Shown here: positions 372-46,525 of the stretch, piece after piece
How the letters are laid out: the number at the start of each line of letters is the position of its first letter
How positions within the stretch are numbered: position 1 is the first letter of the stretch
IMG/VR virus record: IMGVR_UViG_3300028827_000042
Span: 1 to 46,525 of that record
DNA length: 46,525 nucleotides
Reading direction: 5' to 3' (one strand)
Origin: a virus
The notes under the pieces: model-generated
What the model was told of the DNA's origin: nothing
The model's database searches: none
The model's input: the letters and a program-made list of their open reading frames with translations, nothing else
Position numbers and translations under genes: made by a program

Positions 372-405
372 TCATTATGAACCTGATACCTAAGAGGTAA
401 CTGAA

Positions 406-1167: not shown

Positions 1168-1198
1168 GGCCCTCTGAAAAGAAGTAACACCTGAGTTG

Positions 1199-1232
1199 AG
1201 CCGCGCCTGCTTTAACAGCGGCGCGGCTTTTT
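1199..1232 (+). terminator. Rho-independent terminator after the acidic protein gene
   Basis: AGCCGCGCC (1199-1207) pairs perfectly with GGCGCGGCT (1220-1228) across a 12-base loop and runs into five T residues (1228-1232). It lies 31 bases downstream of the stop codon at 1167 and 30 bases upstream of the polymerase start, so the polymerase must be transcribed by read-through or from an unseen promoter. Confidence 0.85.
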
Positions 1233-1262
1233 ATTCAACGCGAAAGCGGTAAGAGGAAACTC

Positions 1263-4835: not shown

Positions 4836-6159
4836 TATTGTATTTAACGAAGACCAAAAGAAAGGGTTTGATGAGATTGTTAAATTCGTTGAGTCAAACA
4901 AAAGCACAGACAGGACTCTGGTACTTAAAGGGTACGCAGGTACAGGTAAAACCACCCTTATCCAAGAGGTGACAAAGAAGTTTGCAGGACATAAAGCATT
5001 CTGCTTTACAGCACCTACAAACAAGGCCACAAAAGTGCTTATGGAAATGTCATCTGAACAGAACTCAGGAGTGTCTGACATCATGACAATCCACAGGCTG
5101 TTGGGACTTGTGATGTCTCCTGACGGGTCAGTCAAAGTCCTCCGTAAAAAGGGAAGCGGAGATGCAGTAGCTAATTACAATGTTGTTGTTATAGATGAAT
5201 GCTCAATGGTAAGTGCTCAGCTCATGGAGCATATAGACGACATTCTTGATAACCACCGACACCTTAAAATAATCTACATGGGTGATCCCATGCAGCTGCC
5301 TCCTATAAACGAAGAGGAGTCTCTGACATTCACAAAGGCTCAGCATGTGGTAGAGCTTAAGTCAGTTGTCAGACAAGCTGACGGAAGCCCCATAATCAAA
5401 CTATGTTCTGACATAAGGATGTCTATTGAGCAGGGAAGGACTCTTTATGAGTTGAAGTCAGAAAGAGGGGCTGACGGTAAAGGTATTTTCGTCCTTCAAA
5501 AACCAAAGTTTATTGAGTGGATGAAAAAAGCGTACTCATCAAACTCATACGCCACAGACCCTAAGTCGTTCAAGACTATCGCATGGAGGAACGCAGTAGT
5601 CGATAAGGCCAATAGACAGATCCGCAGGGCTATTTACCCATTGCCTGAAGACGGCAGTTACCTTGACAAGTTCATGCTTAACGAGAGGGTTGTTGTTGCC
5701 TCTCCTGTTATGGACATGTTGGGAGAGGTGATATTGGCGCATACTGACTCTGAAGGTGTTGTAGAGTCCTTGGAAATTATTGATGCCCACCCTTGGCTAC
5801 GTGCTTATGGCAAGTTCAAAGTATATAGGGTCGTTGTTAAGTTCTTTGGACTAGGCCCAGTAGAGTGCTTTTTACCGCATGAGGACTCACAAAAAGACAT
5901 TAACAAACAGCTTAACAGGCTGAGTTCAGAAGCTAAAAAAGACAGCAGGCTGTGGGGGGCATTCTGGAGTTTCAAAGAGGCTTTCCACGATCTGAGATAC
6001 GCACACGCCATTACCTCACACAGGTCGCAGGGCAGCACTTATGACAACGTGTTTGTGTACCACTCAGACATTATGTCGAACAGGAACAAGACTGAGGCTT
6101 TGAAGAGCTTGTACGTAGCCTGTTCACGTGCCAGGTCTAATCTGATCATACTGGAGTGA
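4828..6159 (+). CDS. Dda/RecD-like superfamily 1B DNA helicase
   Basis: This 443-residue protein has Walker A GYAGTGKTT near residue 35, Walker B VVIDECSM near 120, motif III GDPMQLPP, and the C-terminal 2B/motif V-VI elements AHAITSHRSQGSTYDNVFV and LYVACSRARSNLIIL. That is the layout of T4 Dda and RecD2-type 5'-3' helicases, which load on single-stranded DNA at forks and in recombination. I chose ATG 4828, which has AAAGGTGA just upstream, over the in-frame GTG at 4819. The start sits inside the last codons of the polymerase gene, so translation is probably coupled. Confidence 0.92.
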   Translation: MTDIVFNEDQKKGFDEIVKFVESNKSTDRTLVLKGYAGTGKTTLIQEVTKKFAGHKAFCFTAPTNKATKVLMEMSSEQNSGVSDIMTIHRLLGLVMSPDGSVKVLRKKGSGDAVANYNVVVIDECSMVSAQLMEHIDDILDNHRHLKIIYMGDPMQLPPINEEESLTFTKAQHVVELKSVVRQADGSPIIKLCSDIRMSIEQGRTLYELKSERGADGKGIFVLQKPKFIEWMKKAYSSNSYATDPKSFKTIAWRNAVVDKANRQIRRAIYPLPEDGSYLDKFMLNERVVVASPVMDMLGEVILAHTDSEGVVESLEIIDAHPWLRAYGKFKVYRVVVKFFGLGPVECFLPHEDSQKDINKQLNRLSSEAKKDSRLWGAFWSFKEAFHDLRYAHAITSHRSQGSTYDNVFVYHSDIMSNRNKTEALKSLYVACSRARSNLIILE

Positions 6160-6164
6160 CTGAC

Positions 6165-6683
6165 ATGCAAATCATAACAGACTCTGACATTCGCAAGGCA
6201 ACAGGGCTGCGGTCTGACCTGTTAGGAAAATGGCTTGAGAAGCATTTAAGCAAGACGTTCAGGCAGCTTGAGAACGACGCTGAATTTAGGGCTGTGCGGC
6301 TGCATGATACAGCTGCAGCAGGTAACTTCCTGCCGGCTACTGATGGAGATTACATTTTGATGTGCTCTGGTACAGGTATTCTGCTAGAAGCAAAATGCTC
6401 AGCGAAATATGATTCACTGGCTTCCTGTGCATCCAGCAACATCAGCAAGGGTCAGATACTTAGCCAGAGGTTGTGGTCGCGTGCTGGAGGCACAGGGCTA
6501 TTTGTGTTCGCTTCTGTCTTGTCAAGAACTTTCCAAGTGTGGGACGGGCTGCATGTTGCAAAGCAAAGAGTGGCTGGAAGCAGGTTGGACGCCAAAAAGG
6601 GAGTAATCCTGACAGGGGGCCTGCAGCACATGCCATACGAGCTGTACGACTTCTTCAATAACCGCGGCAACGGAGGTAGCTGA
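6165..6683 (+). CDS. PD-(D/E)XK family nuclease
   Basis: This 172-residue protein has a restriction-fold active site: Asp60 and Asp62 in TDGDYI, followed by Glu75-Ala-Lys77 in LLEAKCS, then Gln and aromatic residues in GQILSQRLW. That matches PD-(D/E)XK nucleases of the Holliday-junction-resolvase/VRR-NUC size class. The likely role is processing branched or damaged phage DNA together with the neighbouring helicase and SbcCD pair; the substrate is not evident. ATG 6165 was chosen because GGAG lies 8-9 bases upstream; an in-frame GTG at 6156 lacks this spacing. The stop codon shares one base with the start of the next gene (TGATG). Confidence 0.75.
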   Translation: MQIITDSDIRKATGLRSDLLGKWLEKHLSKTFRQLENDAEFRAVRLHDTAAAGNFLPATDGDYILMCSGTGILLEAKCSAKYDSLASCASSNISKGQILSQRLWSRAGGTGLFVFASVLSRTFQVWDGLHVAKQRVAGSRLDAKKGVILTGGLQHMPYELYDFFNNRGNGGS

Positions 6684-7813
6684 TGCTTATTTTTTACTCT
6701 GACCCACACATAGGATTAAACAGAAGGGCTAACACCACCACAAGCTCAAGAGCGAAGTTTCAACGAGAGATAACAGCCCACCTGGAAAGCGTACTGAGTT
6801 ATGCAAAAGAGGAGTTTGGAGAAGACTCCAAGGTTATTTGTGGAGGTGACTTTTTCGACAAGCACAGCAACAAGGAAAGCATCATAGTAAGCGCCGTAGC
6901 CTCATATAAACTCACTGACCTTATCATTGCAGGCAACCATGATGTGCTAAATAACACCTCGTCAGTAGGCTCTCTTTTAATGATGGATGAAGTCGTAAGT
7001 TCTGTTGGTGGGGATGGGCGAAGTAAAACATACGTAGCCCACGCAGCAGTTGGTAGCAGTTCCTATTCAGTACACGAATACCACGACGATAATTGTGTAG
7101 TGTACGCAGTCCCTCATCACTCTACGCAAGAGCTGTTTGAGACAGCTCTTGAAAATGCCGCTGAGGACTGCAAGTCAGACAATACAAGATATACCAAGGT
7201 ATTGTTGACTCACTGTAACTATGACTTGAGCGAAGACCACGTCAAGAACGATACCACACTTGTTATGACAGCAGATGACGCCAATTACTTGCTTGATGAC
7301 TGCGGCTTCGATTACATATTCCTTGGGCACGACCATTCCCCAAAACTTGACCACGATGGAAGAGTAGTGGTTATGGGAAGCACAATGCCAACCTCTTTCT
7401 CTGACATAGGCAGTAAGTACATCTACACTCTTAGCTCTGACGGAGAGCTTGACAGTCGCTGTATATGGAGTAAAGACGCAGGATATGTGCAACTATCCAT
7501 CAACAGGGTTGAAGATTGGCCTTCTTCATTTGATACAGGAGTGATGTTTGTAGAAGTAACTGGAGAAGTAGAGGCGAGTAAACGATCTTGGGCCGTGGCT
7601 GAAATCTCGAAGCTATTTGACATCGGAGAGTACGTGCTTGCTGTCAGAGACTCAGTATCAATTATTGACGCTGACAAGATCAATTCAAACGTCATACCAG
7701 AGCTTCCAACAGCCAGGACTGTGCGTGATGTCATAGCAGCAAGGTTAAAGGACACTGACCTGTTCGATCTGTGGGAAAAGAAAATAAAAGAGGTTGAATC
7801 AAATGCTAACTAG
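6683..7813 (+). CDS. SbcD/Mre11-like recombination nuclease (T4 gp47-like)
   Basis: This 376-residue calcineurin-like phosphoesterase shows the ordered metal-binding motifs SDPHIG, GGDFFDKHS, AGNHDVL, LLTHCNYD and FLGHDHSPK. In the Mre11/SbcD/gp47 family these coordinate two Mn ions for 3'-5' exonuclease and endonuclease activity. Its partner, the SbcC-like ATPase, begins 11 bases before this stop codon, the usual coupling of these subunits. The C-terminal third lacks recognisable motifs and would form the capping and SbcC-binding parts. The complex trims DNA ends during recombination-dependent phage replication. Confidence 0.92.
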   Translation: MLIFYSDPHIGLNRRANTTTSSRAKFQREITAHLESVLSYAKEEFGEDSKVICGGDFFDKHSNKESIIVSAVASYKLTDLIIAGNHDVLNNTSSVGSLLMMDEVVSSVGGDGRSKTYVAHAAVGSSSYSVHEYHDDNCVVYAVPHHSTQELFETALENAAEDCKSDNTRYTKVLLTHCNYDLSEDHVKNDTTLVMTADDANYLLDDCGFDYIFLGHDHSPKLDHDGRVVVMGSTMPTSFSDIGSKYIYTLSSDGELDSRCIWSKDAGYVQLSINRVEDWPSSFDTGVMFVEVTGEVEASKRSWAVAEISKLFDIGEYVLAVRDSVSIIDADKINSNVIPELPTARTVRDVIAARLKDTDLFDLWEKKIKEVESNAN

Positions 7814-9983
7814 CGTCGTTATTGAGAACTTCAAGAAGCATAAGAAACTCAGTGTTGGCCTTAAAAATGGTGTCAATGTTATTATAGGGCCTAACTACAC
7901 AGGTAAATCGTCTGTGCTTGAGGCTATAGCTTACGCCTTTGGAGGCCCTAAGTTCGTTAGAGGTGGAGCACAGGTAATAGCTCAAGACTCGGGTGAGCCA
8001 ACAAAAGTAGTGGTTAATTTTGAGACTGGAGGAAAGGGTTATGTCATTACAAGAGGCAGCAACACAACCTCGTTGGTGTCAGATGATGGGGACTTGGCTA
8101 CAGGTGTCACCGCTGTCAATGAAATGCTTGATGAAGTAGTAGGGTCTGACAGGCAGTTGTTTAACATTCTGAGGTACAGCCGGCAAAATGAAGCAGCTCT
8201 GCTTCTCACTGAAGGAGAGGCAAAGCTTACAAGAATGCTGGAGTCTCTTACCGGGTCTGACATCCTGGACAGAGTTTTGCATAGTTTGAAAAGCGACAGG
8301 GACGGTCTTTCAAGTAAGATGGAAGATCTCGACATCCAATCTGTGTCAGAAGATGAGATTGACAGCTTGTCAAAAAATGTTGACAGCATGAAACGAAAAA
8401 TTGTCGAAGCAGAAGAAATGCTGTCTGAAGTGTCCAGCGCCAAGGACAGCTTAAATTCAGAGTACAAAAAGCTGTCCGCTGATCTGTCAGAGTTGATAGA
8501 GACTGAGAAAAAGGTGCAGTCGTTAGTAGCCGAAAAGTCAGGTCTTAGAGAAAGGTTGAAAGTAGTTGAAGAGTCTTTGCAAAATTCTAAGGACAGGCTG
8601 GATTCTATGGAATCTCCTCTAGACTCCTCAAAGTTGTCAGAATTGGAAGACAAGATGAAGTCTTTGTCTGCCGAGCTTCGTCAAGCTAAGGACTCTGTAG
8701 CTTACAGAGACAGGCTGACTGACTCTATTAGCAGGCTGAAAAAATCAATAGAACGCCAAAAGCTGTTCGTGTCAGATAATGAAAAAGGGTTGCTGGAATT
8801 AGACAGCGCTGCTGCTGAGCTTACAGAAGCGTCTAAGTATGACAGCCTGCATAAAAAACGTGTCGGCATAGAGGCAACGCTAGATAGGTTGAAAAAGAAA
8901 GAGCGTGATGGTGTGTGCCCAGAATGTCTAAGACCTCTGGACGACGCAGACCTGAACCTTGACGAGCTTAGAGCTGATATCTCAAGAGTTGAGAGTGAGC
9001 TAGAGTCCGTTAAAGTTTTAGAGAAAGTGGCTGAACTGCAAAATAGGAAGCTTGCTAAGATAGGGACTGACAAGGCAAAACTACACGGTATATTGTCAAG
9101 GGATAGGTGTAACTTGAAGGGGCTTATTGACGAACTGGCAGACGCTAGTAACTCCCTAAGCGAGTTGGTTGTGCCAAGCCAAGACGCAATAGATGAGCTT
9201 GAGTCTGAGGTGTCAAGTATTAACGAGACGCTAGGCAAGCAGAATAAAGTAGCGAAAGAGTACAGGAGAGCTGAGAGGGAGGTTGAACGCTTGTCAATAG
9301 CACTTGATGATTCAGTGAAGTGTTTAGCAGCGGTAGAAGAGAAAATGAACCTTCTTAAAATAGAAGGCGGTATGTCAGTAGAAGACCTCAAGGCAAAGCT
9401 AGACGAGGTTAGCTCCAAGCTAGAAAAGGCGTCTGATAATGAGGCTTCTGTGCTGTCAAAAGTAGGTGTTATGAAAGTAGATTTGGAAGCCATGACTAGC
9501 AAGCTCAAACTGCTGCTTTCTGCTAAAAGCAAGATCGACGAAATTACTGCTCAGCTTGACAAAGTTTCACGCCTTGAGAAATTTCTCAGATCTAATAGAG
9601 CCGCAGTTATGGACAACACCTGGAAAGCCATTATGGCTGGGGCATCCTCAGTAGTGTCGATGATTACAGGAGGGGTGATAGATGAGGTTACAAGGGACAG
9701 CGAGAACGGCATCAGGTTCTACGAAAACGGGGCTATGCGTCCAGTAGCAGCGGCATCAGGGTGTCAGCAAGCTGTCATAGGGGTATCTATCAGAGCCACC
9801 ATTTCAAAAATGTTCTCTACAGGTATGAGGTTTTTGATGCTCGATGAGATAACGGCTGACATGGATGAAGATCACGCAGCAGCTACTATGGCCATAGTGC
9901 GAGAGCTTTCAGACCAAGTTATCTTTATCACACACAGATCGGCAGACATTTCTGACGACTACAACACCATAGAACTTGAGTAA
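7803..9983 (+). CDS. SbcC/Rad50-like ATPase (T4 gp46-like)
   Basis: This 726-residue SMC-like protein has Walker A GPNYTGKSS near residue 35, long coiled coils (roughly residues 170-600), a zinc hook CPEC at Cys372/Cys375 near the centre, and C-terminal Walker B FLMLDEITADMDED followed by the switch His in FITHRS. The ABC signature is unusual, ASGCQQAV in place of the common LSGGE. ATG 7803, with AGAGG upstream, is preferred to the in-frame TTG at 7794. With the upstream SbcD-like subunit it should tether and process DNA ends. It is the last gene of the + strand module and ends 10 bases before a large hairpin shared with the convergent tail operon. Confidence 0.92.
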   Translation: MLTSVVIENFKKHKKLSVGLKNGVNVIIGPNYTGKSSVLEAIAYAFGGPKFVRGGAQVIAQDSGEPTKVVVNFETGGKGYVITRGSNTTSLVSDDGDLATGVTAVNEMLDEVVGSDRQLFNILRYSRQNEAALLLTEGEAKLTRMLESLTGSDILDRVLHSLKSDRDGLSSKMEDLDIQSVSEDEIDSLSKNVDSMKRKIVEAEEMLSEVSSAKDSLNSEYKKLSADLSELIETEKKVQSLVAEKSGLRERLKVVEESLQNSKDRLDSMESPLDSSKLSELEDKMKSLSAELRQAKDSVAYRDRLTDSISRLKKSIERQKLFVSDNEKGLLELDSAAAELTEASKYDSLHKKRVGIEATLDRLKKKERDGVCPECLRPLDDADLNLDELRADISRVESELESVKVLEKVAELQNRKLAKIGTDKAKLHGILSRDRCNLKGLIDELADASNSLSELVVPSQDAIDELESEVSSINETLGKQNKVAKEYRRAEREVERLSIALDDSVKCLAAVEEKMNLLKIEGGMSVEDLKAKLDEVSSKLEKASDNEASVLSKVGVMKVDLEAMTSKLKLLLSAKSKIDEITAQLDKVSRLEKFLRSNRAAVMDNTWKAIMAGASSVVSMITGGVIDEVTRDSENGIRFYENGAMRPVAAASGCQQAVIGVSIRATISKMFSTGMRFLMLDEITADMDEDHAAATMAIVRELSDQVIFITHRSADISDDYNTIELE

Positions 9984-9984
9984 A

Positions 9985-10022
9985 GAGCCGCAGGCTCTAC
10001 TGGATGTTTATCCAGTAGAGCC
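9985..10022. terminator. Hairpin between convergent operons
   Basis: GGCTCTACTGGAT (9993-10005) and ATCCAGTAGAGCC (10010-10022) form a perfect 13-bp stem with a GTTT loop between the ends of the + strand replication operon and the - strand tail operon. A second, overlapping pairing of GAGCC with GGCTC is possible at 9986-9998. T tracts are poor on both sides, so it may act mainly as a 3'-end barrier or stabiliser. The left arm and loop include the last codons and stop of the tail tip gene. Confidence 0.6.
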
Positions 10023-13000
10023 TTCCGGTGTATTTGGTGCAAGCCAGCACTTTTGTCTCAGCTGCATTTACACCAAGTAACCGCTCCACCCTGTCATGAG
10101 CTATGGCTGTAGGGTAAGCTTGGTCGGCAGCACCACCATTTGCTGCACATACGAAGTAAGGGTTATCGTGGCTCCACCCTGAAGTGACAACAGCTCCTGA
10201 AGCTATGGACAGCTTTGTGATTGCCCCAGTAAAGTGCATTCCGTCAAACTCGTTAATAGAGTAATCGCTGTAGTTACCATACCCGGATACCAGCAAATTG
10301 CCTCTGGTTTCAACAGCCCCCTCATACAATCCTGTTACTTGGTACTGCGGCCTGTGCAGTTGGTTAACAATATAAGAAGGGAAATCGTTTGCCGCTGTTA
10401 TATACAGGTTAGAGGCCCCGACAGATATTGGGTACATGCTATTCGCTATCCCAGACGAAACTGCCACAGGACGAATCTGGCTATTGCTGTTGGCCCATAA
10501 ATACTGCCAAGCTGCCACACTTGATGCGTGCTGTACGTAACACACATACGAGCGGGACGCTGCAGAGTCCCATACTTCTACAGCGAATCCTCCCGGACCT
10601 GGTACTACGTACTCACAGACCAATCCAGAAGCGCCTGTAATCCCCAAGTCAACTTCAGTACGGGTGCTTAAGGTTATAGACCCTGTAATCAAGTCAACTT
10701 TGGTGGACAATGTATAGTCCTGCCCTGCAGCTCCAGTGTACGGCACGTTCCAGGTTGCCGCTATCACTCCTGTTTCCCCAGTTTTGAACAGATCCACAGC
10801 GTACTGCTCGTTGGCAGTTATGGTTCTGTCTCCTGCCGGCGGTGTTGGCGATGCCACAGAATTCTGGTTAGTGCCGTCATGGGCCATTACATGCACGACG
10901 CCATGCAGGTCTGACAGTCCAGTAGCTTGACCGTTAACCACAGACGTAGCGACTGTGGTATATACCTGTGTCTTGTCAGACACATAGACATAAGAGGCGT
11001 CAATCAAAACCTTGGATGCGGAATTAAACCCAGTGTCAGATATGCTGAAAGTGCTGGTTATAGCTGCTGTTACAGACGCTATGTCAGCTACATTGAAAGT
11101 AACCCCGTCAGTAGTCCATAAAATCTTAGCAGTGGATGCTGATGCACCTGTAACATCAATCAGGTCAGGCGAGTTGCCGGCCAGCATTCCTACCAAATTA
11201 CCGCCAGTGTGAGTGGCAACCACATTTCCATTTTCGTCACACTCATATATGGTGGCGTCATTGCCTACGCCTGTTACCAACACTACAGATCCATCGTCGC
11301 ACACATACCTGTACTGCTTTGGCATAGTAAGGTCAGTATGCACGTAGTTGGAAGACTGTCCTGATTGTGAAATATGTGACTCCCAAGTACCCAGATAGCT
11401 GCTATTTCTGAAATTTTGAACCCTTGTGGTTTGCAGCGTAGTGTTGGTCGCGTCACTGCTATAGAAAGCAGACACCTCCACATAAACAAAAGGGCTTAAA
11501 AGTCCGTCTAGTGTAAGTGATTGTTCTGTTGCCTTCGGCAGACTGACAAAATTGGTAGTGCTATCAGCAACCTGATCCAACAAAACAGTGTTATTTGAGT
11601 CTCTTACTATCACTCTGACAGCGATGTCAGGAGACTCAGCTGAGTTGGAGTACACACCTTCTCTGGGTGGAGTGCCTATAGAAACAGTCTTGTCATCGAA
11701 CCTCCATAACACTTGCATTTCTGAGGCAAGATACTTAATTCTTACCGCCCTTATTGGAGCAGGGCGCGCTGCTCTTGACACACCAGCCAAGGTTATGGCT
11801 GGTGCTTGTGAGTATGGCAGAAGGTCGCTAAATGTCTCTGTGAGTAAGCGGTAACTGGCGTTACTGCCGTTTGATATAGCCACATTGTTAAGACCGCCGT
11901 AAGACCTTGAAACGTCGTTTATATCACGCATCAGGAACCCGTACATTTTTGTTCCTTTTGGGACAACGTGATACTTAGGGACAGTATCAAATGCCGCCCT
12001 GTACAGGGTCAGGTCGTACCCACCGTCGCTTCTCAATGCTATAAGATCCACAAGAAATATCTCACCATCCATAAACAGCGCTGCTGTGGTGGAGTTGTTT
12101 ATTTCAGTTGCGTTTTCAGAAGACGGTTTGTTTACACCTTCAGGGTACATAGTAAGTTGGAACGAGTCTTTTGTCCTAACATCACCCATTCTCAACCCGT
12201 CAACGCTTAGTACCCAAGTGCTGGCCAACAGGTTGCTTGTTTCACCTAGGTTATTGTCCAGGTGGAACCCATTAGTGTCTTGTGACGGTTTCTTTGCGAA
12301 CACATAAAACGTGTCAAGAGACAGGTCATAAGTGTTAAAGTCTGCGGCACTTTGTACGTTGTACAGCGAGTAGTACGGCATGGCTACTGCTTCAAGAACG
12401 TCAGTAGCTAATGCGTTGTCGCTTGTGACGCTTTCCCATGTAGAGTTTATTTGTTCAGATGACAAACCATAAACTGAAGTGTAGGAAGTGTAGTCCTTTA
12501 TAACATCTTCCATAGCAAGGAGCTTTATCTTGCCGTCGTGCAAGTCGCCATAGTCGATATTCAGCACACGAAACCTTGTGCCGATGAAATTATAATCAGG
12601 GTAGTCAAGAGTAAACACAGACCCTGTAGTCAGGTTCCAGGCTTCCTTGTTAACCACTATCTCTACCCTGGCCAAAGGGTAGGACAGTAACGACAGGTCT
12701 CTAGCCCCAGCCCTTGCCGCCAAGGCTTGCGACCTGTAGCCAGGGTATGTAACAGTTCTTGGTACGATGTCCCCTTGAGTGTCGAGGTTTGAAGCTGAAT
12801 GCAGAGTAAGTGATGCTTTGTCATAGTTTGTCTTATCAGTGTACTCTACTGTGATCTCGTTTATTGTAGAACTCCAAGAAGTGCGCTCAAAAGAAGTAAA
12901 CTCCAACAGATTGTCTTTTGTGACAGCAAGTTCTACTGGATCTCCCTCTCTTAAAAGTCTTACTGTGAGCTTTCCTGTGGATGGGGACAGGTACATCACC

Positions 13001-32500: not shown

Positions 32501-33960
32501 TGTGATTTACCGCCTGCTTTCTTTGGAGTGTTTGGAGTCAAGGCGTTGCCTTGAGGGTCTTTTGATACATCTACGGCATTAACCATATCGTCTTTTGAGC
32601 TGCCTGAATTGTCCATAAATCTGGTACCAGATAACCGAGTGTAAGTCTCTGGCAACGCTTGTATCCCAAGCTCGTCTGCAGCTTGCTCATCAGTCAGCAT
32701 ACCGAGAGACAGCAGCTGCAGCACTCTTGTCTGCTTCATGGTTCTGTAGGCTTCAAGCTCGTCTTCCGGCCTGAGATTTATGGGCTTGAATTTGAACTTT
32801 ACATAGGCGTCAACACCATAAAGACGTATAGCCAGCGTCAGCGCTCTGCTTAAAACATCCTCAACTGGACGTTGTATCCCCTTGGCTATTTTCAAAAACA
32901 CCAAGGATTCAGTATTGGAGAGTGACTGTGACCCCTCCATCCTTAAGCCCAAAATCGACGGATGCGACTTAAGCGAGGTAGCCAACATACCTGAAATAGC
33001 AGTCAAAAGCTCAGTATAATCAGCCTTCACATCCTTGTTCTGAACCTCGTCAACTGTAACAGTGTCGTAGGTTACGATAGCGTCCTCTGGAGCAAGACCT
33101 TTAACTACTTCCTCGACCAGCCTGCGCTGCTCATCAAGGAACTCTCTACGCTTGTCCTCATCGTTGACGGCTTCTGCCGGCATCGCGTTGATTATGCGCT
33201 CAGCGTCTATTGATACAACAAGCCTGCTATGCCCAGTAATTTTTATAGCCCTACGCATATCGTCAATAAATTCGTCATAGTACACAGCCATGTTTACTGC
33301 AGGCTCCAACATCGGCGTGACATAGTTCCTTGTTAAGTCTCTATGCACATGACCAACCCAGAAGTTCGGGATATCCAAACTGACTTCTGGGTCACCGTTG
33401 TTGGCCGGTACTCTTTGTATTGGGTACACACTGCCGTCACCTCTGGATACCCACTTCAAAGTTTCAGTGGCAACTGGAACCATTCTGTGTGGGAGTCTGG
33501 CTTTGTCAAGAACTAGCTCCAGCCCTACTTGGCTGGTTATAACAGCTTCTCTAAGCAAGGTTTCTACAAGAGCGTCGATGGTATATACATCAGCGTAACC
33601 TTTGCTGTAGTCATACACGGTATCCATAGTGGCCATTACAGATTTTGCTATCTGAGTGGCTTGTGAGTTGTATGTGTTGGACCCTGTGTTAAAGGCTTTT
33701 ACTGTGTACCCTGATTTTGCAATCTCCACAAATGAGAATATGGAAGATCCCACATTCCCATTTTTCCTGGAAAGCAATCTTAGCGCTTGTGTTGAAGACA
33801 CAAACGAACTTCTAAGCTGCTCTGATGACAGATTGTTTATTATGGGGCTGTTGTCAGGGACTACCGAACCTTTCTCATACCTTGAATAAGCGCTTCTGGT
33901 TGAAGCTCTATTCAAAAGCCTTCTGGGCATAGTTACTTTCTTGGATTGTTTTTTTGCCAT
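32497..33960 (-). CDS. Portal protein
   Basis: This 487-residue protein follows the large terminase and precedes the protease, the portal position. It has an N-terminal basic arm, a middle domain with DIPNFWVGHVHRDLTRNYVT, and the long-helix region ending LSRALTLAIRLYGVDAYVKF followed by LRPEDELEAYRTMKQTRVLQ and LGMLTDEQAADELGI, a pattern seen at the C-terminus of many portals. It would form the dodecameric DNA channel at the capsid vertex. Its start shares one base with the terminase stop, and its end overlaps the protease start by 4 bases. Confidence 0.88.
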   Translation of the reverse strand: MAKKQSKKVTMPRRLLNRASTRSAYSRYEKGSVVPDNSPIINNLSSEQLRSSFVSSTQALRLLSRKNGNVGSSIFSFVEIAKSGYTVKAFNTGSNTYNSQATQIAKSVMATMDTVYDYSKGYADVYTIDALVETLLREAVITSQVGLELVLDKARLPHRMVPVATETLKWVSRGDGSVYPIQRVPANNGDPEVSLDIPNFWVGHVHRDLTRNYVTPMLEPAVNMAVYYDEFIDDMRRAIKITGHSRLVVSIDAERIINAMPAEAVNDEDKRREFLDEQRRLVEEVVKGLAPEDAIVTYDTVTVDEVQNKDVKADYTELLTAISGMLATSLKSHPSILGLRMEGSQSLSNTESLVFLKIAKGIQRPVEDVLSRALTLAIRLYGVDAYVKFKFKPINLRPEDELEAYRTMKQTRVLQLLSLGMLTDEQAADELGIQALPETYTRLSGTRFMDNSGSSKDDMVNAVDVSKDPQGNALTPNTPKKAGGKSQ

Positions 33961-35690
33961 TATAAACCGACTTTAGGTATAGAAGGGTATTTTGAAATCG
34001 GAGCTGCAGTAATGCCTGGCAGCACCCCGACAGCCTTTCGACCTGACTTTGGTTCCAATAGTGTCGCAGCAATGTTCATATAATTCAAGGCGTGCGCGTA
34101 GTGGTCGTCCCCGGTACTAACCCAATTTATTACCCTATCGCCATGAGTATTGAACGACTCAACCCTTTTCATGTTACGCAAATGGGTGTGCAAGGTGAGA
34201 GTCTCAACACCTTTACAAAACCTCACCCTTCCTGCGTTTACCGCCTTTACAAGAAGGTCGAACGATGTGGAGCGTTCAGTTGTAAGGATACCTTCTTCGT
34301 CGTTTACCTTTATGTGCGTAAGCTGGCCCTTACTTGTGCTACGGGTGTAGTAGTTGGCATACCTAACACCAACTGGTGCCCCTGCTACAAACGATGAAGA
34401 TGTAGTGAAATCAGGGCCAGCGTCTATAACAGACTTAACAACCCCAAACATCTTTGAAAGCTCGTTAAGACGATACAACAAATAGCCTTCTGCTGTCTGC
34501 CTCACTCTCTCCATGTATATAACGTCGATCTTTCTGTCAACAGGTTTGCCAATCACAACCCAAGACGTTTTGCCAACGTCAACGCCCATGAGCGTGCCGG
34601 AGCTAACACCGTAGTCAGGAACCAGCGGATTGTACACCGTATTGTTTTCCATGACTTCAAGAATGAAACTATTTGAAGCATCTTCGTCAGGTAGCCCAAC
34701 CTTGAAGTTGACCCAATCAGATTTTTTAGCATAGTCTTCCAAACTCCTTAAAGTCTTACTAATAGGGTTATACCTTATAACATCGTAAGGAAATACCTGG
34801 TACCCGCTAACAGTGCGGTCTGGAAATTTGTGAACCCACTCACGTTTACTTGGGTCAGCCAAATTGGCTTCAGTAATCCTAGCACCACAAGAAGGGCATT
34901 TAAGCCAAGCACCTTCAATGTTGTACGAATCGTTAGACAAATCCTCCTTGTCTATATCGTGCAGGGCCTTGTCGAATCCTGGGATAACTACGTCGTCCAT
35001 AAACGACGGAAATACAGTGTCAGAGCACTTATCGCACTTTACCCCGTAATGGGCTTGTGTAGATACAGCGAATGCTTTACTTATGCCAAACCCCTCTACA
35101 GTGGGGGTGGAGAATCTTCTCTTGATACCTCCGTCCGCGGCGTGACCTAAGCGCGAAGAAAACGTAGTCATGGCCTGCTGATCAGAAAAGTCAACCTCGT
35201 CATGTACGAGAATGTCAGCTGGGACTGAAATAGCTCCTGTCTGCGTGTATGTGCCAAGTATGTACAGAAATGAAGTACCTATTTTCTTTAACTCAACATT
35301 GTCAATGTCCCTGTCCAGCGACTCACTGAGAAATTTTGAGGCTTTTATTACAGGGTCAAATCTGGATTTGGCGAACTTTGACGCAAACCCTGCTGTAGGC
35401 AGCGTGTAGATAGCTGTATGCTGCGGGAGGATGGACACCAGACCAAGCACAAGCCTGAGAGTTAATTCAGACACGCCAACCTGAGAACATTTGCGGCATA
35501 CCAAGTCTCTGGCTTGGTCGTTTACAATCCCTATCTGAAATTCGTGGTCCTTGAATGACCAAGGCTCTCCAGGCAGCTTAGGGTGGGCTGTGTTTATCTC
35601 TAACCATTTAGACAAGCGCGACATATCTACTGACGAGGCCACGCCTGTCCGTACACGCTCCATAAACATTGATGAGTAAGGGTTTGGCAC
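33960..35690 (-). CDS. Terminase large subunit (lambda gpA type)
   Basis: This 576-residue packaging motor shows the gpA-type ATPase with an adenine-site Gln region FKDHEFQIGI, a deviant Walker A CRKCSQVGVSE (residues 65-75), Walker B ILVHDEVDF (160-168), and a zinc-ribbon insertion with CDKC and CPSC near 215-275. The RNase H-like nuclease follows, with LMGVDVGK, VIDAGPD and a C-terminal DDHYAHALNYMNIA supplying acidic metal ligands. gpA-type terminases usually generate cohesive ends, so a cos site may exist in the full genome. It starts next to the o-spanin stop. Confidence 0.93.
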   Translation of the reverse strand: MPNPYSSMFMERVRTGVASSVDMSRLSKWLEINTAHPKLPGEPWSFKDHEFQIGIVNDQARDLVCRKCSQVGVSELTLRLVLGLVSILPQHTAIYTLPTAGFASKFAKSRFDPVIKASKFLSESLDRDIDNVELKKIGTSFLYILGTYTQTGAISVPADILVHDEVDFSDQQAMTTFSSRLGHAADGGIKRRFSTPTVEGFGISKAFAVSTQAHYGVKCDKCSDTVFPSFMDDVVIPGFDKALHDIDKEDLSNDSYNIEGAWLKCPSCGARITEANLADPSKREWVHKFPDRTVSGYQVFPYDVIRYNPISKTLRSLEDYAKKSDWVNFKVGLPDEDASNSFILEVMENNTVYNPLVPDYGVSSGTLMGVDVGKTSWVVIGKPVDRKIDVIYMERVRQTAEGYLLYRLNELSKMFGVVKSVIDAGPDFTTSSSFVAGAPVGVRYANYYTRSTSKGQLTHIKVNDEEGILTTERSTSFDLLVKAVNAGRVRFCKGVETLTLHTHLRNMKRVESFNTHGDRVINWVSTGDDHYAHALNYMNIAATLLEPKSGRKAVGVLPGITAAPISKYPSIPKVGL

Positions 35691-36044
35691 CTACCTGTTA
35701 GCCTCTTCTGATAACACTTTTATTAGTTTATCAGATTCGTCCATGTATTTCCTTGCGCCTTTTATGAACTTCAGTATTTCGACCATATTGAAAGACAGGT
35801 CCTCATATTCTTTAGGAGTGAGGCATATCAACGGAGAGGGGTTTGAAAGCACAGTGAAATCCACTTTGCGTGATTTTACAGGATCTGGCCTTGGCAGGTT
35901 GATTTCAAAAGACGCTCTGTCTATATCACTAGAAAGTCTAACGTCCAGAGGCTTTTTCGATGTCAGAAAACATCCTTGCAGAAGCGCCATTGATACGCTG
36001 CTCGATAATATCAGGAGTGTCTTTGATAAGTTTTTCAAGGTCAT
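35691..36044 (-). CDS. o-spanin, Rz1-like outer-membrane lipoprotein
   Basis: This is a 117-residue protein from ATG 36044; an in-frame TTG at 36053 would add three residues. It has a signal peptide with a basic N-region, a hydrophobic core (LLILSSSVSMALL) and lipobox LQGC (Cys25 from this start). The mature part contains DPVKSRKVDFTVLSNPSPLI and a C-terminal helix after LTPKEYEDLS, as in Rz1/LysC-type proteins. About 107 bases overlap the i-spanin gene in another frame, the classic nested spanin arrangement. It should link with the i-spanin across the periplasm and fuse the two membranes at the end of infection. Confidence 0.85.
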   Translation of the reverse strand: MTLKNLSKTLLILSSSVSMALLQGCFLTSKKPLDVRLSSDIDRASFEINLPRPDPVKSRKVDFTVLSNPSPLICLTPKEYEDLSFNMVEILKFIKGARKYMDESDKLIKVLSEEANR

Positions 36045-36324
36045 GGGTCTCAAACACCTTTAAGGTTTCGTAAGCCTCGTCTCTAGCCTTTGAATACTCT
36101 GCAGATAACTTAACTGAGGCTGCCCTGGCTGCTTCTATTTGAGTCTCCAAGCTACTAACATAATCAGCGTAGGCTGAATCTACAGCTGCCAGGCTACCTC
36201 TTAAAAGCTCGCTTTCTTTTTTAGCGTCCTTAAGCTCCTCAGCCATTGTTGTGTACCTATCAACTGCAAAATAAGCAGCAGACACAATAGCCAAAGCTGC
36301 GGACAGCTTAACCCACAGCAGCAT
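35938..36324 (-). CDS. i-spanin, Rz-like inner-membrane protein
   Basis: This 128-residue protein has an N-terminal membrane anchor (residues 2-20, LLWVKLSAALAIVSAAYFA), a long periplasmic coiled coil (about 25-90), and the C-terminal motif VFETHDLEKLIKDTPDIIEQ with RINGASARMF, which is typical of Rz-type proteins of many siphophages and prophages. The gene overlaps the endolysin by 17 bases and contains the start of the o-spanin in another frame. Its role is the inner half of the spanin complex needed to disrupt the outer membrane. Confidence 0.88.
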   Translation of the reverse strand: MLLWVKLSAALAIVSAAYFAVDRYTTMAEELKDAKKESELLRGSLAAVDSAYADYVSSLETQIEAARAASVKLSAEYSKARDEAYETLKVFETHDLEKLIKDTPDIIEQRINGASARMFSDIEKASGR

Positions 36325-36886
36325 TTGCAGACTCCACTAAAGCTTTTGCCAGCCTTCTGGCTATTACATTGGTAAGTGGGTTGTACTTTTTACTTTTTAC
36401 CAACTCTTTAAGGAACATGGGTTCGAGTATTGCAGAAGGCATTTGTGTTTTTCTAAGAAAATAGTCAACAACCTCGTCACCTTCAATGTCGCCTGAGTAG
36501 TCTTTATGGCTTGGTCTGTCCATCCTATACCAGCCCTCTTTTGCACCTCTGTCTATGTTGCCAATCTCCTTCACCAGAGCCGCTTGAGAAAGCTCAGCGA
36601 GCTTTTTACCTTTAACTGATCTTGGGTGGTATAACGTTTCGCACCCTGATATAACAGAGCGTCCTGGGTACGAGTTAAAGTGCATTTCGTAAGCAACATC
36701 AGCGTTGATTCCATTTATGTATGCCACCTTGAACTGCAGGTCGCCAACAGGAACCATAACAATGTCTCCCTTTGACTCAGAGGCTATCATACCGACCCAT
36801 TCAAGGGCTTTTTCGTACTCCGTTACACCGGCATATGTAGCCCCCTTCTTTCTTTGATGGTGCCCTACTGATAGCGCTATAAGCAT
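36308..36886 (-). CDS. Endolysin, N-acetylmuramoyl-L-alanine amidase (Amidase_3 type)
   Basis: This 192-residue single-domain enzyme shows the zinc-binding series expected of Amidase_3: SVGHH (His9/His10), Glu23, His69 in EMHFNS, and the catalytic Glu in SAILEPMFL near residue 155. It would cut the bond between muramic acid and the stem peptide. There is no signal peptide, so a holin is needed for export. The ribosome site is GAGGAT before ATG 36886. It heads the endolysin-spanin group, immediately before the terminase. Confidence 0.9.
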   Translation of the reverse strand: MLIALSVGHHQRKKGATYAGVTEYEKALEWVGMIASESKGDIVMVPVGDLQFKVAYINGINADVAYEMHFNSYPGRSVISGCETLYHPRSVKGKKLAELSQAALVKEIGNIDRGAKEGWYRMDRPSHKDYSGDIEGDEVVDYFLRKTQMPSAILEPMFLKELVKSKKYNPLTNVIARRLAKALVESANAAVG

Positions 36887-42064: not shown

Positions 42065-42589
42065 TCAATCAACTTTGTCCAAGCCCTTTTGCAGTGTTTC
42101 AAAAAACACCTCTTGCTGCTCCTCTGGCAAAGTCTTTACCGCCTCCACAGTGGCTTGCTCAACAAGCCTCATGCGGTTCTGGTTGATGATTTTGTCGTGG
42201 AACCTCATTAACGACCCTAGCAAGGTGTTGGAACTGGAGATAAGCTCCTTGGCATCACGAGGGGTATGCCCATCCTTGATTTGGCCATTCTCATCCATAA
42301 TCATGTCACGCAATGCCCTCACCGCCTTTATCTGTTCGTTTACCTCCTCAGCCAAGTCAAAATTAGCACCATAGCCAGGATCGGTCCTGCTGCCTGATCC
42401 GCGGCTTACCACCCCTGCCGCTCTGAAATATGCAGGGTAACTGTCAACAAGTGTGTCAGCCAGTAATTGCATTTGTTGTTCAGAGATAGCCTGCTGCCTT
42501 GCCGCATCAATAATCTGGTTCACAGCATACACCAGCTGTTTGTTAAGTGACCCTTCTCCAAGCCCCTCCTCAAAAGACCTGATAGACAT
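42065..42589 (-). CDS. Helical protein of unknown function
   Basis: This 174-residue protein has predicted helices throughout, a Gly-rich loop (VVSRGSGSRTDPGYGANFDL), and a C-terminal half DAKELISSSNTLLGSLMRFH followed by DKIINQNRMRLVEQATVEAV. The C-terminal half looks somewhat like small terminase subunits, which are DNA-binding helical proteins, but no HTH is clear and the large terminase is more than 6 kb away. Its start overlaps the previous stop (TAATG). Confidence 0.6.
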   Translation of the reverse strand: MSIRSFEEGLGEGSLNKQLVYAVNQIIDAARQQAISEQQMQLLADTLVDSYPAYFRAAGVVSRGSGSRTDPGYGANFDLAEEVNEQIKAVRALRDMIMDENGQIKDGHTPRDAKELISSSNTLLGSLMRFHDKIINQNRMRLVEQATVEAVKTLPEEQQEVFFETLQKGLDKVD

Positions 42590-42978
42590 TACTGCCTCTC
42601 CTTTTGGTTTGTGGTTTCGGTAATTTCCTCAAGCATGGCCAGCTCCTCTTCCACGGTGACAAGGTCAGTGCCCATCTGTAGCTCGTCAGCCAGGTCTTTC
42701 AACGACTGCTGAGAAAAGGTCTCTGGCCTAAGTACAGACAAAAGAGCGCCTGCAATAAATGCAAGGTCTCTGTTTCCAGCCGGATGCCTGTTAGCTTCGA
42801 TAACAGCTCTTAACAGCTTGTCCATCTTGTCTGCTACAATGTCGTATCTCCAAAAAAACACTGACTTGGCAATGTAGTGAATAAGCATCAGCATTGACGA
42901 AACGACGATACACGAGGTGACAAACAGCCCAATATAGGTTGCCCATACAGCAGCATAAGGCACTTGCGAGATTTCCAT
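42589..42978 (-). CDS. Membrane protein of unknown function
   Basis: This 129-residue protein has one strong transmembrane segment (about residues 12-37, with IGLFVTSCIVVSSMLMLIHY), then a polar domain with RHPAGNRDLAFIAGALLSVL and an acidic helical C-terminus. It has a good ribosome site (AAAAGGA) 7 bases before the start and is the first - strand gene on one side of a divergent promoter region. It could be a superinfection or lysis-related membrane protein, but nothing specific was recognised. Confidence 0.7.
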   Translation of the reverse strand: MEISQVPYAAVWATYIGLFVTSCIVVSSMLMLIHYIAKSVFFWRYDIVADKMDKLLRAVIEANRHPAGNRDLAFIAGALLSVLRPETFSQQSLKDLADELQMGTDLVTVEEELAMLEEITETTNQKERQ

Positions 42979-43002
42979 TGTATATTCCTTTTAGGTGCGT
43001 TC

Positions 43003-43060
43003 TTGATGTAACATGGTCATAAAAGTATAACCTAATTTTGAGTTACAAGTAACCTAAAGG
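43003..43060. promoter_or_regulatory. Divergent promoter region with direct repeats and a palindrome
   Basis: For the + strand there is a sigma70-like promoter: TTGATG (43003-43008), a 17-base spacer and TATAAC (43026-43031). On the - strand, TATACT overlaps the same place (complement of 43024-43029) with a weak upstream box, facing the 42978 gene. Around them are two copies of TAACCTAA (43028-43035 and 43050-43057), 22 bases or about two helical turns apart, and a palindrome GTTAC-AA-GTAAC (43042-43053). Together they look like an operator, but the binding protein is unknown. Confidence 0.6.
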
Positions 43061-43062
43061 AT

Positions 43063-43392
43063 GTGGCCAAATTACAGGATCGTGATAACAGAATGTGTAA
43101 AGACATAGCAATAAAGTATGAAACGGCTGGTGAGATGCTTAAAGACTCTGAAGATCAAACAGTCGTGTTTGAATCTTCAGAGTCTGAGGTGACGTTAAAG
43201 TTGACAGATGTAGCCTCTACACTCTCAGAGGCCCTGTCAATAGACCAGAACTCCAGATTGTGCCTGTGCATTATCGGTAAGCTGTTAGATAGGCTGGAAG
43301 AGGGTGAGATCCCTCACTTTGCGTTTACCTTGTCGCAGACAATCAGAGATATGGCTGTTGAAGCGCTTGAATCAAGAATGAAAGACTTGTAG
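43063..43392 (+). CDS. Moron-like gene of unknown function
   Basis: This 109-residue acidic protein is the only + strand gene between 10 kb and the window end. It has a central VTLKLTDVASTLSEALSIDQ, a hydrophobic helix RLCLCIIGKLLDRLEEGEI and a helical C-terminus; there is no membrane or signal segment. I do not recognise it. It has its own promoter and is closed by a terminator. The start is uncertain: GTG 43063 has AGG only two bases upstream, while ATG 43093 has AGGA 13 bases upstream. Early regulation, anti-host or exclusion function are possibilities without direct support. Confidence 0.7.
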   Translation: MAKLQDRDNRMCKDIAIKYETAGEMLKDSEDQTVVFESSESEVTLKLTDVASTLSEALSIDQNSRLCLCIIGKLLDRLEEGEIPHFAFTLSQTIRDMAVEALESRMKDL

Positions 43393-43414
43393 TATATAAC
43401 AGTGGTTTTCCTTC

Positions 43415-43474
43415 ATGAGGTCTCTCCTCAATGTGTGAGGTGCGCTTGACATCACGTTTCCTCCGGGCACCTCA
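43415..43474 (+). repeat. Alternating inverted repeats in a 3' leader
   Basis: Within the 131-base gap 43393-43523, four short segments alternate: TGAGG, CCTCA, TGAGGTGC (43436-43443) and GCACCTCA (43467-43474). The first two can pair as a small hairpin; the last two pair over 8 bp with a 23-base loop, and the inner pair is interchangeable. A TTGACA lies inside the larger loop but has no -10 box at usual spacing. The rest of the gap is the terminator. Confidence 0.5.
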
Positions 43475-43480
43475 TATATT

Positions 43481-43512
43481 GGCCGTGTAAGTTACCTTAC
43501 ACGGCCTTTTTT
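43481..43512 (+). terminator. Rho-independent terminator of the moron-like gene
   Basis: GGCCGTGTAAG (43481-43491) pairs perfectly with CTTACACGGCC (43496-43506) around a TTAC loop and is followed by TTTTTT (43507-43512). It ends the + strand transcript before it can run into the - strand holin-like gene, whose stop is at 43524. Confidence 0.92.
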
Positions 43513-43523
43513 AACCACCATGG

Positions 43524-43862
43524 CTATCGCGAAGACTGTACATGCTTCGGCCTGTCCTTTGAAGCGTCGCTGTACCCCTTTTGTACCAACGCTAACAGAC
43601 CTGACACTGGTGTCAAAACCCCGAACGCAGCGGCTATAGTAGTGGCATCGTACCCGCTCTGCTCAGCTGCGTAGAAGCACCACCAATATGCCTTGAAGGT
43701 TATTACCCAAGCAGCTGCAAGAGACGCTCTACGGATCAAGAACCCGCGTTCCAGCACCTCCCACAACCCATTCAGAATTGCGTTCACTACCGACCAGAAA
43801 TCCTCCACCGCTTTCAGCAATAACGATGTCGGCCCGAAGTTTGTCTTGCTCTCCATACACAT
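43524..43862 (-). CDS. Putative holin, two transmembrane segments
   Basis: This 112-residue protein has an amphipathic N-terminus, then a basic patch FLIRR and two hydrophobic helices (about residues 48-66, SLAAAWVITFKAYWWCFYA, and 74-94, TIAAAFGVLTPVSGLLALV) ending in a polar tail QKGYSDASKDRP. This matches small two-helix phage holins whose tail begins with a short Tyr/Ser/Lys/Arg stretch. The start ATG-TGT-ATG has GAGAGG 9 bases upstream and gives two possible initiation codons (43862 and 43856), reminiscent of the lambda S dual start. It overlaps the upstream gene by 134 bases. A role in releasing the cytosolic amidase is inferred. Confidence 0.65.
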   Translation of the reverse strand: MCMESKTNFGPTSLLLKAVEDFWSVVNAILNGLWEVLERGFLIRRASLAAAWVITFKAYWWCFYAAEQSGYDATTIAAAFGVLTPVSGLLALVQKGYSDASKDRPKHVQSSR

Positions 43863-44070
43863 CTGTATATACCTCTCTTCTGGTGTCGTACCTGTCCATG
43901 TACATTTTAGCGCCTTTGTAGGAGTTAAGCGCCAGAACAGCCATTATCAATAGCGAGATAGCTACGGCAACTGCAAGCATAAGCTCACAAAATATTTTGC
44001 AGTACCTGGCGAAAGCCTCCTCTGCCCTACAGTGATGGCGGATAATGATCATCTTCTGTACCTGGTTCAT
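43729..44070 (-). CDS. Single-pass membrane protein overlapping the holin-like gene
   Basis: From ATG 44070 this encodes 113 residues: a short charged N-terminus with HHCRAEE, one transmembrane segment (about residues 26-50, CELMLAVAVAISLLIMAVLA), then a polar domain with YMDRYDTRREVYTDVYGEQD and a Gly-rich end. The start overlaps the previous stop as ATGA, so I prefer it to the open frame that runs further upstream. Its last 134 bases lie inside the holin-like gene in another frame. It might be an antiholin or a lysis accessory protein; no motif proves this. Confidence 0.6.
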   Translation of the reverse strand: MNQVQKMIIIRHHCRAEEAFARYCKIFCELMLAVAVAISLLIMAVLALNSYKGAKMYMDRYDTRREVYTDVYGEQDKLRADIVIAESGGGFLVGSERNSEWVVGGAGTRVLDP

Positions 44071-44633
44071 AAAAAGTGTGACAGAGCGTGAATTACAAGG
44101 AAAATAGCTACGGTTCTGGCGAAATGACTGCTCTTTACAAGAGAAGTCTTTGGCGACGTAACAGCTGCTGAAACAGCAGAAGCAATGCCATGGCATTTCA
44201 CTTCATACTTTTTAGCTACTTCCTTCCTGTTAATGGCGGAGGCCAACAATTTCAACCTTTTGGATCTTGTTGATTCGTAGTGCAGTTCTTCCTGCGTAAG
44301 AGCAGGCTCAAGAAACTCTGCTGAAGCATAGATATTGAACCCGCGCACCATGCCGTCAAGGAACTGCTGCCTGGTTGGAACAGCGGGCAGCAGTCTGTTT
44401 CTTTGCAGGTGGTCAAAATCAGTGAAGTTTGGTGGTAGGTCGTCGATGGGCAGGGTGGTTGCCTGCTGTTGAGCTTTGTCTTCTGTTGACAAAGGCAGCC
44501 TTGCCGGCAATGGATTTACGTCGATAAGTGAGTTGATGCCAGCTTCATGCAGCTTCGCCAGAATTTCATTCCTGGTTGCTGCAGCTGCCTCGGATACTGC
44601 CGGCGGTTGGTCGGTAGCGGCGGTTGATGTCAT
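44067..44633 (-). CDS. Protein of unknown function with hydrophobic C-terminus
   Basis: This 188-residue protein has an Ala/Pro/Thr-rich N-terminal part (residues 1-75), a helical centre with PAVPTRQQFLDGMVRGFNIY and a hydrophobic C-terminal end (ARTVAIFLVIHALSHFL) that could be a tail anchor. ATGA overlaps at both ends join it to the neighbouring membrane-protein genes, so it is probably made with them. I do not recognise the family. Confidence 0.65.
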   Translation of the reverse strand: MTSTAATDQPPAVSEAAAATRNEILAKLHEAGINSLIDVNPLPARLPLSTEDKAQQQATTLPIDDLPPNFTDFDHLQRNRLLPAVPTRQQFLDGMVRGFNIYASAEFLEPALTQEELHYESTRSKRLKLLASAINRKEVAKKYEVKCHGIASAVSAAVTSPKTSLVKSSHFARTVAIFLVIHALSHFL

Positions 44634-45046
44634 TGCTTTTTCTCAAGCATGGACTGTATCCTTGCCAGTTGGACGCTCATGGCAGTATTCGTTTCCATAA
44701 TTACACGGAATCGTTCATCAAGCTCCCTGCGGTTCCTTGCAATACTGTTTCTGTTTTCGATTACGTCCCTTCTGATACCTCCAAGGACTTCTTGATATGC
44801 CTCGAATTTAAGCTGCTGGAAAGTTTCTGTTTTTGCCTGACGCTCTGACATAGTAACCCACGCCGCGGTCACTGCCCCCATCATCGTAAGGAACATAAAC
44901 ACCGTGCTCAACACACCAATGATATTGGTATTTGACTTGTGTGATCTCATGCCTGATTGAGTGGTAGCGTAGTCAGGCACCATGTAAACGCTCTGCCTCT
45001 CTCTCACATGTACGTACTTCTTATCTTCACTGGTATCGTCAGGCAT
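44630..45046 (-). CDS. Membrane-anchored coiled-coil protein
   Basis: This 138-residue protein has a polar N-terminus (about 40 residues), one transmembrane segment near 42-65 (IIGVLSTVFMFLTMMGAVTA), and a coiled coil to the end (AYQEVLGGIRRDVIENRNSI, then RELDERFRVIMETN). The topology is like an i-spanin, but a standard Rz/Rz1 pair exists at 36 kb, so another membrane role is more likely. Its ribosome site is weak (AAAGAG). It follows the terminator at 45.1 kb and begins the membrane-protein gene chain. Confidence 0.7.
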   Translation of the reverse strand: MPDDTSEDKKYVHVRERQSVYMVPDYATTQSGMRSHKSNTNIIGVLSTVFMFLTMMGAVTAAWVTMSERQAKTETFQQLKFEAYQEVLGGIRRDVIENRNSIARNRRELDERFRVIMETNTAMSVQLARIQSMLEKKQ

Positions 45047-45070: not shown

Positions 45071-45102
45071 AAAAACGGCAGAGCTTATTCTAAGCTCTGC
45101 CG
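45071..45102 (-). terminator. Rho-independent terminator, - strand
   Basis: A 12-bp perfect stem (CGGCAGAGCTTA at 45076-45087 with TAAGCTCTGCCG at 45091-45102) has a 3-base loop. On the - strand it is followed by TTTTT (complement of 45071-45075). It lies 56 bases after the nuclease gene stop and ends the regulatory operon. The surrounding 112 bases (45047-45158) hold no gene. Confidence 0.92.
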
Positions 45103-45158
45103 TGTCGCAGTGCAATCTGGTAGGTAAAATCTGTTACCTTGGTTTATTGGCTACTCAG

Positions 45159-45515
45159 TCAGTAACCTGCAGGCACAGCCAGCCCTTTATTAACCAGCAG
45201 CTTGTTTATGTTCTGCAGTGATGGTTTATCTGGTGTAGCTGAATAGATCGTTGCTATGTACCGGCCATACTTACCTTTCGTATCCTTTTTTGTCTCCACC
45301 AGAATGTAGTCAGAGTTAACTAGCACCTTCTCAAGGAACTCCTTGGACTCAAGCCCTTTTTTCTTTTCTTCAAGATCCTTTGTTCTTGTTTCAGGCGCGT
45401 TTATGCCTTCCAGCCTGAATCGCTCCTTCACCATCGTACTGAACCCAAGGTCCACCATCAGGTCAACAGTGTCTCCGTCAACCACTTTCACCAGGTACGC
45501 TCTGTATTCATACAT
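45159..45515 (-). CDS. Staphylococcal nuclease-like (thermonuclease fold) protein
   Basis: This 118-residue protein is close to a single SNase domain. It has the OB-fold start VVDGDTVDLMVDLGF, then RFRLEGINAPET (Arg34 and Glu42 match catalytic Arg35 and Glu43 of the family) and KGKYGRYIATIY (Arg85 matches Arg87). A complete active site suggests a Ca-dependent nuclease active on DNA or RNA. There is no signal peptide, so it should act in the cytosol, possibly on host nucleic acid. Its ATG overlaps the HTH gene's TGA by one base. Confidence 0.88.
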   Translation of the reverse strand: MYEYRAYLVKVVDGDTVDLMVDLGFSTMVKERFRLEGINAPETRTKDLEEKKKGLESKEFLEKVLVNSDYILVETKKDTKGKYGRYIATIYSATPDKPSLQNINKLLVNKGLAVPAGY

Positions 45516-46044: not shown

Positions 46045-46525
46045 TTATCCCCATTGTTCAGCCATTGCATCGGCAATCCCCTGATAGGTTCTTGATCTAT
46101 CCTTCCATCTGTCTGCTGACGGCGGCAGCCTGTTCTGCCCGCTGTTGGTCTGATTACCCCATCTTGGGAGAGGCTTTTTGGCACCCCGGCAAACCTTACA
46201 TGATTGGCCGTCCTCAACAATCTGATTGCAGCAGACAATCCGTGGGAGCATGTTGTTGGTCGGCTTTAGTACAGGCAGGCCCTTCAGCCATAGGCCAGTC
46301 TTCTTACTGGCGTCGTGCCCAAACATGTATGGGTGAATGTATTGGTCAGGCTGCCTCCACCTTGATGACATGACTCCAACAGGATTTTCTATGCAGATTT
46401 TGTCTATGTTAGCGTTTGCCAGACTCATGAAAAATTCTATAGCTTCCTCTCTGGCTTTCCTTCTCTCTCTCCCTACCAAGGTACCTGGCTTTATGGATTT
46501 TGTTTGCAAGTGAGCGTCCTTATAC
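46045..46525 (-). CDS. Phage DNA methylase-like protein, C-terminal part (5' end outside window)
   Basis: The frame is open to the right edge of the window; the only in-window start, TTG at 46509, is unlikely, since the sequence upstream of it remains in frame. Visible parts are ICIENPVGVMSSRW, the segment PDQYIHPYMFGHDASKKTGL with LWLKGLP, and a C-terminal GQNRLPPSADRWKDRSRTYQ then GIADAMAEQWG. I associate this pattern with phage proteins annotated as site-specific DNA (cytosine) methylases, whose catalytic N-terminus would be outside the window. A cysteine group (CC, CKVC) between them may bind zinc. The function needs the missing N-terminus to be certain. Confidence 0.65.
   Translation of the reverse strand, partial: YKDAHLQTKSIKPGTLVGRERRKAREEAIEFFMSLANANIDKICIENPVGVMSSRWRQPDQYIHPYMFGHDASKKTGLWLKGLPVLKPTNNMLPRIVCCNQIVEDGQSCKVCRGAKKPLPRWGNQTNSGQNRLPPSADRWKDRSRTYQGIADAMAEQWG

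Follow-up and report, generated by a model that had tools for sequence, protein, structure and literature searches.

Within a virus record from IMG/VR, which we analysed in its whole length (46,525 bases, a 46.5-kb fragment; hereafter the window), a gene on the + strand stands alone among genes of the opposite orientation and ends at a strong intrinsic terminator. We put at about one half the probability that this unit is an independently transcribed accessory gene with the layout of a moron, the product of which most likely acts on a host protein and is not part of the virion. The arrangement itself is an ordinary one, of a known type, and its features are collected in Table 1.

Table 1. Features of the + strand unit and its flanks, with positions in the window
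Feature	Position	Strand	Remarks
TerS-like (terminase-small-subunit-like) protein	42065..42589	-	matches the gene that immediately precedes TerL in L002 and L003
Left neighbour	42589..42978	-	129 aa, N-terminal hydrophobic segment
Sigma70-like promoter TTGATG-17-TATAAC	43003..43031	+	best local site, moderate score
Possible weaker divergent promoter GTTACT-18-TATACT	43024..43053	-	score 7.8 vs 9.0 for the + strand site; consensus match only
Perfect palindrome GTTACAAGTAAC	43042..43053		sole exact copy in the window
Orphan ORF	43063..43392	+	109 aa from GTG or 99 aa from ATG 43093
In-ORF hairpin	43143..43185	+	13 perfect pairs, 19 in all with one bulge
3' UTR hairpin	43429..43481	+	15-nt arms, 23-nt loop, abuts the terminator stem
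Intrinsic terminator	43481..43512	+	11 perfect pairs, loop of 4, six T
Right neighbour	43524..43862	-	112 aa, two hydrophobic stretches, convergent with the + strand gene

The phage and the surroundings of the gene

Judged by its sequence, the window is that of an unusual siphophage, distantly akin to Lana, PMBT3 and Vibrio phage 264E42.1. All relatives found for its TerL (33960-35690) were at 45% identity or less, the closest match being in the IMG/VR locus L002 (45%) and the named relatives PMBT3, Lana and 264E42.1 being at 35 to 37%; no relative of TerL was found in GTDB, and megablast of the right third of the window against 50,697 phages gave no match. The three named phages and the IMG/VR loci L002-L009 share a homologous TerL with the window and mostly a TerS-like protein too, and L002-L009 share other head genes with it. 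At the locus edge of L003 (1-527) we observed a short-repeat array with several open frames, which give RPGM-, ASQV- and GRIP-like repeats. Since the record stops inside gene 46045-46524, which matches the phage DNA methyltransferase family PHROG 757, the contig is a fragment.

A + strand block (3-9983) encodes DNA polymerase, a Dda-like helicase, SbcCD-like proteins and a resolvase, and the - strand block encodes the tail tape measure, major head protein, protease, portal, TerL, Rz-like spanins, amidase endolysin and probable fibre genes. Where the two blocks converge there is a 14-bp perfect hairpin (9992-10023), likely a bidirectional terminator. In the gene list made here, 37 likely - strand genes extend from 9997 to 46524 around the ORF and + strand genes otherwise occur only in 3-9983, which bears out the sequence-only reading of a lone + strand gene within a run of more than 30 - strand genes.

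To the left of the gene, the TerS-like product also matches, more weakly, genes near TerL in L009, L007, 264E42.1, PMBT3 and Lana; from its position and homology it is probably the small terminase subunit, and a direct query of IMG/VR with it gave no relative. In L002 and L003 TerS directly precedes TerL, whereas in the window the two lie 6.4 kb apart with endolysin, spanins and fibre-like genes between them, the amidase endolysin and two overlapping Rz-like spanin genes (35691-36886) being directly upstream of TerL. To the right, the product of 43524-43862 was judged holin-like by eye only, and a profile scan gave no family match for it. The + strand gene hence sits between a gene that looks holin-like by eye and one that is probably TerS; lambda bor, presumably, also sits between lysis genes and the small terminase subunit gene. 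Possible membrane (holin-like) proteins are encoded at 43524-45046, 7 kb from the endolysin and spanin genes, and the lysis genes may therefore be split. A strong terminator-like hairpin on the - strand (45075-45103; 13 perfect pairs followed by TTTT) lies between the nuclease gene 45159-45515 and the gene 44630-45046, and may end the transcript of the nuclease gene.

Coding character and product of the + strand ORF

The ORF is more than a chance open frame, and both its codon choice and its amino-acid make-up are coding-like. In Markov-simulated gaps the longest ORF reached such a length in 1.8% of cases. The codon score of the ORF (0.164) compares with 0.188 ± 0.061 for 330-base segments taken from genes of the window, and its synonymous-codon bias (P = 0.0005) and amino-acid make-up (P = 0.001) both lay beyond those of shuffled sequences. 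Translation may begin at GTG 43063 or at ATG 43093, and the start signals are poor for both: AAAGG lies only 2 bases 5' of the GTG, and AGGA lies 13 bases upstream of the ATG.

With a pI of 4.5 and a charge of about -9 the product is an acidic protein, and it has no hydrophobic segment. The earlier remark that it is not recognised holds, as scans of Pfam, PHROGs, NCBIfam, PADLOC, phages, plasmids, IMG/VR and GTDB gave no relative. Similarities to a single-stranded DNA-binding protein (NCBIfam E 0.028, PDB E 1) and to a Schlafen GTPase-like domain (Pfam E 0.054) fell far below the cut-offs and were taken as chance. Profile search and structure prediction had been proposed as checks; profile scans gave no family match, and single-sequence models of the two start versions reached pLDDT values of 47 and 52, too poor for a fold, with no match of E below 0.1 when these low-confidence models were used in fold searches. 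We counted the orphan status toward an accessory role because accessory genes are often orphans.

Promoter region, terminator and hairpins

The candidate promoter consists of TTGATG (43003-43008), 17 bases and TATAAC (43026-43031). With a sigma70 weight matrix it was the best site in 42950-43090 (score 9.0), and 36 sites in the window scored equal or better, that is 0.39 per strand-kb or one per 2.6 kb per strand, so that a site of at least this score would be expected in roughly 3% of 85-base stretches on one strand. A stricter consensus scan omitted the site because the final T of the -10 element is missing. The sequence-only reading had given the gene a sigma70-like promoter of its own; the sequence is present as described, but the match is only moderate.

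A second, weaker match on the - strand could serve the - strand genes that start at 42978, and the palindrome GTTACAAGTAAC within it might be an operator between divergent promoters. This operator reading is weak because, by our own estimate, some 5-2-5 palindrome would occur in the 84-base gap with a chance of about 8%. The divergent layout, with the possible - strand promoter overlapping GTTACAAGTAAC, and the position of the gene beside holin-like and TerS-like genes would suit a regulator of the phage cycle, whose product governs late transcription or the time of lysis by way of a palindrome-controlled promoter pair. However, profile scans gave neither a helix-turn-helix nor another regulator match, the palindrome may have arisen by chance, DNA binders are not typically acidic and the gene was unmatched in ten relatives; we therefore consider such a regulator rather unlikely.

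At the other end of the unit, the perfect 11-bp terminator with six T's that had been described before was found and is strong, its stem (43481-43506) being followed by TTTTTT with no T run on the - strand. The whole window contains seven exact inverted repeats of at least 11 bp (arms up to 69 bases apart). Two further strong hairpins, overlooked in the earlier description, which had named the terminator only, are seen in the sequence and in its predicted fold. The arms of the one in the 3' UTR are 87% complementary as DNA, and pair completely only in + strand RNA, where two G-U pairs complete the stem, whereas the - strand gives A-C mismatches there; the corresponding fold energies are -24.7 (+) and -16.5 (-) kcal/mol. 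This asymmetry argues for transcription of the + strand, as independent though modest evidence. The hairpin inside the ORF has a fold energy of -27.2 kcal/mol (z -8.8 against mononucleotide shuffles), and, among exact inverted repeats of the window, its 13-pair repeat shares second place in length behind that at 9992. We dropped it as a terminator, since no T run follows it on either strand.

These structures raise the question of whether the RNA is as important as the protein, in that the + strand transcript, or a 3' fragment cut near the hairpins, could be a regulatory RNA, either an mRNA that yields an sRNA from its 3' UTR or an antisense RNA that targets read-through transcripts of the late genes. 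Among 120-base windows, 43401-43520 on the + strand had the lowest fold z-score of the entire window (-9.0, rank 1 of 1394) and 43101-43220 on the + strand ranked fifth for RNA structure. The two stacked hairpins with the T6 terminator resemble the 3' end of an sRNA, the predicted combination of a structured 3' end with an intrinsic terminator being the one looked for in 3' UTR-derived sRNAs, and the 3' UTR contains the C/U-rich stretches TTTTCCTT, TCTCTCC and TTTCCTCC. There is also a precedent in STnc6030 of prophage BTP1, an antisense RNA within late genes that gives superinfection exclusion (PMC7067206). Like the + strand transcript, STnc6030 runs opposite to phage late genes; unlike it, STnc6030 has no ORF of more than 60 codons and is antisense to coding genes, whereas the transcript here would carry a coding-like ORF and lie between - strand genes (PMC7067206). 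Against a regulatory RNA, pairing of the C/U-rich stretches with the 44 translation starts in the window was no better than for shuffled sequences (P 0.05 to 0.69), no Rfam family was found at the gathering cut-off, the strong terminator alone accounts for part of the structural signal, and the coding bias indicates that the ORF is translated now or was so recently. The Rfam hits Esr41 (20.6 bits, cut-off 102) and a toxic-sRNA family (18.5, cut-off 50) were below cut-off, and the exact hairpin patterns were absent from IMG/VR. We regard this as the most interesting rival, and as an improbable one.

An accessory gene and its likely action

The reading that the unit is an accessory gene directed at the host is favoured because its layout matches that described for accessory loci such as STMMW_20121 of ST64B, for which an independently transcribed gene antisense to the lytic genes is characteristic (PMC7067206). 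As in STMMW_20121 and in lambda bor and lom, a single gene lies antisense to late genes, here with a promoter and a terminator that are apparently its own. No sequence relation to these genes is known, and the + strand gene differs from them in its strong extra RNA hairpins and in that its sequence gives no clear sign of lysogeny, recent acquisition or phenotype.

The gene had earlier been called a moron-like cassette. Its opposite orientation, its organisation as a unit of its own, the unrecognised product and the lack of a match in distant relatives fit this description, but the signs of acquisition as a unit are mixed, and the gene is no more than a candidate moron if that word is reserved for acquired genes of lysogens. 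The gene had no match in ten distant records (L002-L009, Lana and 264E42.1; PMBT3 was compared through a general phage search only). Its two neighbours, 42589-42978 and 43524-43862, were equally unmatched in the distant relatives, so the absence of the gene says little; all the relatives compared, at a TerL identity of 45% or less, are too far for a presence/absence comparison, and the comparison of the locus in related phages that had been proposed found no close relative. The G+C content of the 510-base unit (42.4%) is in the bottom 1.5% of windows, and its trinucleotide make-up is ordinary and its codon usage like the phage's own. We found no flanking repeats of at least 7 bases around the unit, no insertion scar and no close empty site. 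Of the proteins scanned, none was recognised as a lysogeny protein, and the related phage PMBT3 is virulent and has no genes for lysogeny (PMC8421299), which makes a moron expressed from a lysogen doubtful.

For the accessory gene that we favour, we infer that host sigma70 RNA polymerase would transcribe it from about 43038, independently of late transcription, and that the strong terminator would keep antisense RNA from extending into the holin-like gene and those beyond it. The product would be a small, acidic, probably cytoplasmic accessory protein of 99 or 109 residues and, by analogy with such loci, would target a host protein, in takeover, exclusion or counter-defence. That the ORF is decayed or a passenger, with no function under selection, as the poorly placed ribosome-binding sites of both starts and the orphan status might suggest, is very unlikely given codon and amino-acid biases like those of the window's genes, compact flanks and an intact terminator. 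It would equally be a long shot that the transcript has a dual function, with a small, acidic protein of a new family, directed at the host, encoded on an mRNA whose processed, structured 3' RNA and in-frame 19-bp hairpin jointly act as a second effector or self-regulator.

Reversed stand-alone genes in the late regions of phages are a productive source of exclusion and counter-defence proteins, and the + strand gene, an orphan whose coding signal is clear, is a reasonable choice for a screen. With its strong hairpins, it also offers a test of whether such units carry functional RNA besides protein.
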